DNA of 64,000 nucleotides from Candidatus Planktophila sp. (lineage in GTDB: Bacteria > Actinomycetota > Actinomycetes > Nanopelagicales > Nanopelagicaceae), in assembly GCA_030681675.1 (NCBI GenBank), contig JAUXRP010000015.1, forward strand, positions 186,001 through 250,000, in the 5' to 3' direction. The stretch's first letter is position 1, and every line of letters begins with the position of its first letter. The translations under genes and the position numbers were made by a program. Under the pieces are notes generated by a model that ran no database searches, had not been told where the DNA came from, and saw only the letters and a list, made by a program, of their open reading frames with translations. Below, piece after piece: positions 40,210 through 42,544 of this stretch.

Positions 40210-40653
40210 TTAATTGAAAGTGGCGCGATGTTCCTCGTCGTGATTCAAAATAATTTGTAGCATTGATTCAATAGTTATTGTGCCGAAGGTTTTATGAATA
40301 GCAGGGGCGTTACGTTCGGCTTCAGTGAGAGATTTCAAAAAAACTACCATCGATGTACGGCTTTTATGCAGAAGAGCTAATGATTCATCTAATGTAAAAT
40401 CTGCATATGTAGCCGCGGTTTTCTCTCCATCTGGCTCCCACCACGCTAAGGCAGGAGGTGTCTGTCCAGTAAGTTGAGCATTCACCATCAACTCAAATCG
40501 AGCCATCCACACTTCGGTATCCACATCAGAAATATGACCAATGGTGATTGCAGGAGCCCAACCCTCTCCGTTGAATGTGCACTCCTTGGCAGATCTGGTT
40601 AAGCGATCGGTCGACTCAGTCAGGGCGATAATTTGGGATTCGTAGTCATTCAT
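40210..40653 (-). CDS. DinB-like four-helix protein
   Basis: This 147-residue protein fits the DinB/mycothiol-dependent isomerase-like superfamily. Histidines are placed for metal binding in ITIGHISDVD (around 38) and near the C-terminus in ILNHDEEHRATFN. Members include thiol-dependent S-transferases and uncharacterised damage-inducible proteins. The substrate is unknown. TAAACT six bases before ATG 40653 indicates a leaderless transcript, divergent from the leuA leader. It ends one base from the glnA stop. Confidence 0.72.
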   Translation of the reverse strand: MNDYESQIIALTESTDRLTRSAKECTFNGEGWAPAITIGHISDVDTEVWMARFELMVNAQLTGQTPPALAWWEPDGEKTAATYADFTLDESLALLHKSRTSMVVFLKSLTEAERNAPAIHKTFGTITIESMLQIILNHDEEHRATFN

Positions 40654-40659
40654 ATCGTA

Positions 40660-40705
40660 AGTTTAATGCGCAAGTTTGCTCAATAAAAGGTTTACGCGTT
40701 ACCCT
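40660..40705. promoter_or_regulatory. Divergent leaderless promoters, DinB-like / leu leader
   Basis: Reverse -10 TAAACT (complement of 40660-40665) ends six bases before ATG 40653. Forward -10 TACCCT (40700-40705) ends six bases before the leader-peptide ATG at 40712. Confidence 0.55.
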
Positions 40706-40711
40706 AGAGCC

Positions 40712-40756
40712 ATGTTGCGCAGTCTTCTCCTAAGCTGCCGTGGCGGGGTCAATTAA
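40712..40756 (+). CDS. Leucine leader peptide upstream of leuA
   Basis: A 14-codon frame encodes M-L-R-S-L-L-L-S-C-R-G-G-V-N with five bases of Leu interest: TTG at codon 2 and consecutive CTT-CTC-CTA at codons 5-7. It starts six bases after TACCCT (leaderless) and ends 72 bases before leuA. Consecutive leucine codons in front of a leucine-biosynthesis gene, plus competing hairpins just downstream, are the hallmarks of ribosome-mediated attenuation. Leader-peptide control of leuA has been described for other actinobacteria. It is too short for routine gene finders. Confidence 0.82.
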   Translation: MLRSLLLSCRGGVN

Positions 40757-40822
40757 CCGATCTCCTCGCCGCGGGGTTTGTCGTATCGGTACATAGATGA
40801 CAATCCCCGAGTACATAAGGAG
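40738..40822 (+). promoter_or_regulatory. leuA attenuator: two mutually exclusive hairpins
   Basis: Hairpin 1 pairs 40738-40748 (CCGTGGCGGGG) with 40764-40774 (CCTCGCCGCGG), 11 bp with two G-U pairs. Hairpin 2 pairs 40772-40782 (CGGGGTTTGTC) with 40799-40809 (GACAATCCCCG), 11 bp with one T-T mismatch. They share 40772-40774, so they compete. The leuA ribosome site AAGGAG is at 40817-40822, and CTCCT occurs both in the Leu codons (40727-40731) and at 40762-40766, either of which could mask it. Confidence 0.75.
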
Positions 40823-40828
40823 CAGTAA

Positions 40829-42544
<1,716 letters not shown>

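Follow-up and report, generated by a model that had tools for sequence, protein, structure and literature searches.

Upstream of leuA in most Actinobacteria, an RNA structure named the LEU element was described in 2005 (Seliverstov et al., PMC1262725). As presented there, it has three parts: a leader open reading frame (ORF) containing consecutive Leu codons, a pseudoknot, and a base stem formed between those codons and the Shine-Dalgarno sequence (SD) of leuA. Its authors preferred protein binding, proposing ML1624 orthologues, because mutating the leuA leader of S. coelicolor gave some effect, but one inconsistent with classical attenuation; the conclusion of the same paper has the Leu-codon mutations without influence on regulation (PMC1262725).

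Leu-rich leader peptides before leuA are reported in the transcriptomes of S. lividans, C. glutamicum and C. diphtheriae (PMC8079986, PMC4046766, PMC5784534), whose descriptions are of leader peptides and attenuation and, in the portions concerned with leuA, do not extend to SD masking or a pseudoknot. The S. lividans peptide, LeuL1 (MRFGLLLLSCRGEGL), is leaderless by RNA-seq, as we propose for the locus below, and is described as lacking a typical terminator (PMC8079986). The sequence upstream of one of our own loci (L047) encodes the same peptide. For ribosome-sensing leaders in general, the tested precedent is given by the mycobacterial cysteine leaders, which are likewise leaderless with consecutive end-product codons, and in which ribosome speed controls downstream translation, there of cysteine genes (PMC9031893, PMC13236596). 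The upstream ORFs (uORFs) of ilvB also use codons for branched-chain amino acids (BCAAs) to sense charged tRNA, but are described with an intrinsic terminator and antiterminator, that is, as transcription attenuation (PMC10272879, PMC13236596).

The locus studied here lies in a window of 64,000 nt from Candidatus Planktophila sp. (contig JAUXRP010000015.1, positions 186,001 to 250,000), and all of its features are on the forward strand. The leuA gene (40829..42544, ATG at 40829) encodes a 2-isopropylmalate synthase of the yeast type (TIGR00970) with a C-terminal LeuA_dimer domain, and its SD, AAGGAG, is at 40817..40822. Upstream is a leader ORF of 14 codons, MLRSLLLSCRGGVN followed by TAA (40712..40756; ATG at 40712, TAA at 40754-40756), with three consecutive Leu codons, CTT CTC CTA, at 40724..40732. 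The motif CTCCT occurs twice in the region before leuA, at 40727-40731 within the Leu codons and at 40762-40766. An earlier note, made from the letters of the window, had listed the frame, the Leu codons, both CTCCT sites and the SD, and all of these are confirmed in the sequence. By sequence, the locus also has the leaderless short ORF with consecutive end-product codons that marks the cysteine type of leader. Polycysteine leaderless short ORFs of mycobacteria were reportedly treated by Canestrari et al. in 2020, and we know of no LEU-type pseudoknot in them.

The feature is a genuine LEU element (Seliverstov et al. 2005), ordinary for its class, and shares with the published one the Leu-run leader, the Leu:SD base stem enclosing a pseudoknot, and the gene leuA (PMC1262725). 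A search of 40600-40900 with E-values allowed up to 5 found no Rfam family, so an Rfam-based annotation would overlook the element. The window's own genome holds a single sequence match to the leader region and a single match to the covariance model described below, in which the element scores 77.7 bits (E 3.2e-13), with the window itself among the sequences used to train that model. The RNA from 40713 to 40850 (138 nt) folds at -45 kcal/mol, which was equalled by 4 of 200 shuffles.

For comparison, LeuA was searched for in 60 genomes (50 matches at E <= 1e-100) and in 256 genomes of the class (248 matches at E <= 1e-150). The automatic search left 12 of 138 leuA upstream loci without an element, of which L010, L017 and L031 had no upstream sequence; L006, L012, L054, L070, L071 and L050 (the last a second LeuA) showed no element, L019, L020 and L062, with an inserted hairpin, were restored by hand, and L001 was removed as the same place as L002. 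From the resulting 128 elements we subtracted five exact duplicates and six without an SD and start codon at most 75 nt from hairpin 1 (P1), leaving 117 distinct elements in 36 families, 41 of them in the window's family (f1) and 76 in the others. The element finder gave a bonus to Leu runs. Two alignments were made, one of 38 of the 41 f1 elements, the other of 63 rows (10 of the 41 f1 elements and 53 of the 76 others) chosen by eye for alignability, a choice that favours structure. The covariance model was built from these 63 sequences.

The predicted hairpin P1 and the predicted pseudoknot are strongly supported by compensatory changes across the class. P1 pairs 40738..40747 with 40765..40774, and 99.4% of its cells are paired in the 63 selected sequences, with double changes at 5 of 10 pairs. 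The pseudoknot would join ACCGAU at 40756..40761, inside the P1 loop, to AUCGGU at 40785..40790, inside the loop of hairpin 2 (P2); in the same sequences 85.2% of its cells are paired and double changes occur at 5 of 6 pairs. The structure as a whole has 73 two-sided changed cells where 17.7 are expected, a value reached by none of 500 shuffles, which ignore the relatedness of the 63 sequences. Shifting the partner columns by 1-3 lowered the paired cells from 91.5% to 38-64%, a control that leans toward structure, since it uses the same rows that were chosen for alignability and that yielded the structure. Pairing of the P1 loop with downstream sequence was also scored free of any alignment, and gave 17.8 for own partners, a mean of 15.3 for partners from other families (top of 60: 16.3) and 13.8 for shuffled partners (top of 40: 14.7). 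The earlier note missed this putative contact between the hairpin loops. Three elements (L019, L020, L062) carry an additional hairpin of some 33 nt in the P1 loop, immediately 3' of the leader stop codon, and keep the P1 and pseudoknot sequences.

P2 is a predicted lineage feature of the window's family. Its arms are 40773..40784 (pairing segments 40773-40776 and 40778-40784) and 40797..40808 (segments 40797-40803 and 40805-40808). In the window it folds at -17.7 kcal/mol, matched by none of 200 shuffles, and it reaches the 5% level in 20 of the 41 f1 elements; here the locus differs from the LEU element as described in 2005, its second pseudoknot strand lying inside an additional hairpin loop. 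Since that strand sits in the P2 loop, the pseudoknot of the window would be a loop-loop contact. As a class-wide feature P2 was rejected (own -10.1, shuffled -9.9, 63 of 200 shuffles as good; exchanged linkers were as good in 3 of 200). The earlier note had described two hairpins that share three bases and exclude each other. Both hairpins are there and their arms can share 40772-40774, but mutual exclusion does not hold, because the shared bases are end pairs only and the two hairpins coexist, side by side, in the minimum-energy fold.

A leader with start, frame and stop is present in all 117 elements (ATG in 83, GTG in 34). At least three consecutive Leu codons are found in 116 of them, and in 116 the leader stop codon lies within the P1 loop. 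The last Leu codon ends exactly 5 nt before P1 in 111 leaders, 2 nt before it in five and 6 nt in one. Across the 38 aligned f1 sequences, bases 1 and 2 of all three Leu codons are invariant and third bases vary in the first two codons, while the third codon ends in T in at least 90% (the window has A); this pattern is the mark expected of coding constraint. In 106 of 117 leaders the Leu run ends in CTT, a codon that is otherwise scarce: in leuA genes of other families it accounts for 1.9% of 978 Leu codons. The commonest Leu run is CTC-CTC-CTT, and CTCCTT is found in 33 of the 41 f1 leaders and 51 of the 76 others. Because the 3' end of 16S rRNA is CCUCCUU, the Leu run looks like a mimic of the anti-SD. 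CTT is kept as the last codon even where CTC would pair better with the SD.

Six nucleotides 5' of the leader ATG in the window is a -10 box, TACCCT (40700..40705), the candidate promoter of a leaderless transcript. A TANNNT box lies 4-9 nt 5' of the leader start in 113 of 117 leaders, a figure that is partly selected since the choice of leader start codon gave weight to this box; at a spacing of 5-8 nt it is found in 79% of leaders, against a background of 1.4%. A sigma-70 consensus scan of 40600-40900 gave no promoter. Three loci from the same genus as the window (L006, L012 and L054, in genomes G023, G029 and G269) have no LEU element upstream of leuA, and there a box of the same type, TACCCT or TACCGT, lies 6 nt before the GTG of leuA itself, which supports the leaderless promoter. 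G269, the one of these three genomes scanned with the covariance model, gave no match. Such loci show that these lineages manage without the element; in most close relatives the frame and the stems are kept, as the earlier note had expected of a functional leader. Its leaderless Leu leader peptide likewise agrees with the boxes seen here, and we infer that transcription of the window leader starts at its ATG.

The base stem (P0) pairs CUCCU of the Leu codons (40727-40731) with AGGAG of the leuA SD (40818-40822), and in the window has five contiguous pairs plus two. SD masking by the Leu codons, which the earlier note put forward, was already proposed in 2005 as the LEU base stem (PMC1262725); what is new here is comparative support. 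Compensatory changes back the proposed Leu:SD stem more modestly than they back P1 and the pseudoknot: in the 63 selected sequences 83.2% of P0 cells are paired, and double changes occur at one of five pairs. Mean pairing of the Leu triplets with the SD is -7.67 in the 41 f1 elements (-5.16 with shuffled triplets) and -7.24 in the 76 others (-5.70 with shuffled triplets), with none of 200 shuffles as good in either set. Exchange of SDs between families is the harder test, and gives P0 modest support: exchanges were as good in 29 of 300 trials when every family was included, in 6 of 300 when f1 was left out, and in 8 of 300 when both f1 and f35 were.

Some of this support can be followed base by base. 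Among elements with an exact AGGAG, the leader sequence CTCCTG goes with CAGGAG in five of five cases (four families) and CTCCTA with TAGGAG in five of six (families f1 and f5, with two of the five being close relatives), the exception being the window. In L052, the closest relative of the window in this set (99% identical LeuA), each of the three Leu codons differs from that of the window at its third base, and the run forms nine pairs in a row (one a G-U) with an SD identical to that of the window. The second CTCCT of the window (40762-40766), which the earlier note had also taken to be complementary to the SD, has a counterpart in only 14 of the 41 f1 elements and 13 of the 76 others, and is explained by P1.

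The effect of a ribosome on the Leu run was modelled by nested folding, with the pseudoknot left out. Blocking the Leu run raised the mean openness of the SD from 0.24 to 0.40 in f1 (up in 30 of 41) and from 0.23 to 0.29 in other families (up in 21 of 35); changing the Leu codons to CTG in silico opened the SD only to 0.32 and 0.31. In the window the unpaired probability of the SD is 0.35 both with and without a stalled ribosome, and the calculation was rejected as proof of a switch.

The covariance model matches 248 of the 256 class genomes at E <= 0.01, at most 63 of these 248 being training genomes; those without a match are G269, G236, G285, G046, G070, G085, G086 and G096. In a draw of 158 genomes from the phylum, whose unmatched members may include some of the class, 16 match, namely the window's own, 13 others of the class and two from outside it. 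One of the outside genomes has a full element before leuA (G389:C191:4052-4173, L272), by transfer or on a contaminating contig, and the other (G368) has a partial match at E 0.0055. Among leuA loci from titled records, 72 of 80 match the model, some of them being training genomes under another label. G042, without a match to yeast-type LeuA, has an element (L149) before a LeuA of the bacterial type (TIGR00973); G045, G047 and G123 are also without a yeast-type LeuA match, yet have a model match.

At least two model matches were counted, by eye, in 76 of the 256 class genomes. From genomes with several matches, and from G042, 53 loci were fetched, the majority being extra copies. The downstream gene is leuB in 19 (including the doubtful L178, with leuB 1.5 kb away), a second leuA in 13, an ordinary leuA in seven (L144, L148, L150, L151, L158, L166, L179), leuC in six (including L190, at 29% identity judged false), a gene like the LeuA regulatory domain in four, a bacterial leuA in one, and none in three. 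L145 has a leader of the leuB type, and no leuB was found in its stretch. The copies described in 2005 were at leuA, with one in a Bifidobacterium transposase, and the account does not place any at leuC or leuB (PMC1262725). Our literature survey, which reached abstracts and few subscription journals, found no published leaders of this kind at leuB or leuC.

Codons at the three places ending 5 nt before P1 were counted in the leuA leaders of the 117 elements and at 41 of the 53 loci (L145, L161, L175, L178 and L190 were among those omitted). Leucine fills 347 of 351 places in the leuA leaders, a figure that comes partly from selection because the finder favoured Leu runs, 15 of 15 in the leuC leaders (five sites, one family), 35 of 39 in those of the second leuA and three of three in that of the bacterial leuA. 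The leuB leaders, by comparison, have 19 Leu, 30 Val or Ile and 5 other codons at 54 places (18 sites, seven families), and those of the regulatory-domain genes 5 Leu, 4 Val or Ile and 3 other at 12 (four sites, one out of register). Both the leuB and the leuC copies came from the covariance model rather than from the Leu-favouring finder. A Fisher value for the codon difference overstates the case, as sites within one family are not independent. By these counts the sensing codons change with the gene downstream, and the spacing, P1 and the pseudoknot remain as they are. At leuB, P0 shows no excess of pairing (own -6.93, shuffled -7.15, 136 of 200 as good; 17 sites, 60 nt downstream), and so P0 does not account for the mechanism in full at every site.

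Two further observations concern the genes beyond these copies. At eight loci (L142, L146, L160, L162, L163, L168, L181, L185) an ORF of about 30-60 codons lies between the element and leuB, with a conserved motif, (A/S)(M/L)DRRD(N/Q)GG, near its end; the two copies tested (L162, L163) gave no NCBIfam or Pfam match. In family f4 the element stands before a small protein like a lone LeuA allosteric domain (PF08502) at L159, L180, L183 and L191; of the two tested against PF08502, L159 is above the cut-off and L183 below it, and Leu or Val codons are in register in three of the four.

We consider the LEU element to be quite probably a translational attenuator, in which ribosomes stalled on the Leu codons would keep the leuA SD open. 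Transcription would start at the leader ATG, so that a ribosome loads directly. With leucine ample, this ribosome would cross the Leu codons, stop in the P1 loop and leave; P1 and the pseudoknot could then fold, bringing the Leu codons beside the leuA SD, and pairing of the two in P0 would shut leuA. With charged tRNA-Leu scarce, the ribosome would wait on the Leu codons, P0 would be blocked, and the SD would be open for leuA to be made. One stretch would thus serve as both sensor and anti-SD. The stalled ribosome of the earlier note masked the CTCCT of the Leu codons, as here, but was also thought to block hairpin 1, most of which should instead be left standing, given the 5 nt that separate it from the last Leu codon in 111 of 117 elements (by reasoning from a ribosome footprint). 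Leader control of leuA, another of its proposals, is likewise supported; the element lies directly upstream of the gene. Counting against translational attenuation are the weak P0 of the window, the unchanged nested folding there, and the S. coelicolor mutants, although the paradox of these mutants may dissolve because they would also alter P0.

The protein-binding model of 2005, by which the element is the site of a regulatory protein (ML1624 orthologues) and the Leu codons matter only as the strand that pairs with the SD, was preferred from the S. coelicolor mutants and a phylogenetic profile (PMC1262725), and the strong conservation of P1 and the pseudoknot would suit it. Several things seen in the leaders speak against it: start, frame and stop in 117 of 117; first and second Leu-codon bases that are invariant over third bases that vary in the first two codons (38 f1 sequences); and, at leuB, Val, Ile and Leu codons held at the same position with no detectable SD pairing, a pattern for which a protein site has no need. 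We regard this model as unlikely, and the comparison favours probable codon sensing by a translating ribosome over it, because the leuB leaders carry their mixed codons without detectable SD pairing. Transcription attenuation, with translation of the leader choosing between P1 with the pseudoknot and a terminator-like hairpin, has a parallel in the ilvB uORFs with their terminators (PMC13236596, PMC10272879), and one terminator-like match does overlap P1 (40764-40776). That match has a stem of five pairs and a broken tail (TTTGTCGT), and is one found against a mean of 0.3 in shuffles. The Leu codons covary with the SD at leuA, and the S. lividans leader, for its part, is said to have no typical terminator (PMC8079986); such attenuation seems to us improbable.

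A different role for the pseudoknot deserves some weight. Frameshift signals place a pseudoknot at a similar fixed gap, and by that resemblance the 5-nt gap suggests a possible second role as a brake. In its full form, this explanation makes the pseudoknot chiefly a mechanical brake 5 nt past the last Leu codon, slowing the ribosome and sharpening the sensing, with SD masking secondary. The gap is kept in 111 of 117 elements and the sensing codons keep their place at leuB, where P0 is undetected, whereas the covariation of P0 suggests that pairing with the SD has been selected at leuA; we hold the full form to be rather doubtful.

Codon sensing by stalled ribosomes, taken across the copies, leads to a wider proposal, toward which we lean by a little. 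The element may be a retunable ribosome-sensing module distributed across the leucine pathway of the class, made of a leaderless ORF with three or four sensing codons at a fixed 5 nt from a pseudoknot and working with no regulator protein. At leuA and leuC the codons would be Leu, which at leuA would double as an anti-SD mimic masking the SD; at leuB they would be Val, Ile and Leu, without SD pairing and with another output; and the window's genus would have gained a further hairpin, making the pseudoknot a contact between two loops. The interest of the element rests on these retuned copies and on the geometry, not on the window alone. Where the 2005 description, on its own terms, left the mechanism open and leaned to an unknown protein, ribosome sensing is now the better bet. 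If the module reading is true, one ribosome-read code would coordinate genes of the leucine pathway. The comparison also points to leuA, leuC and leuB in a number of actinobacteria as parts of one candidate leucine/BCAA response.
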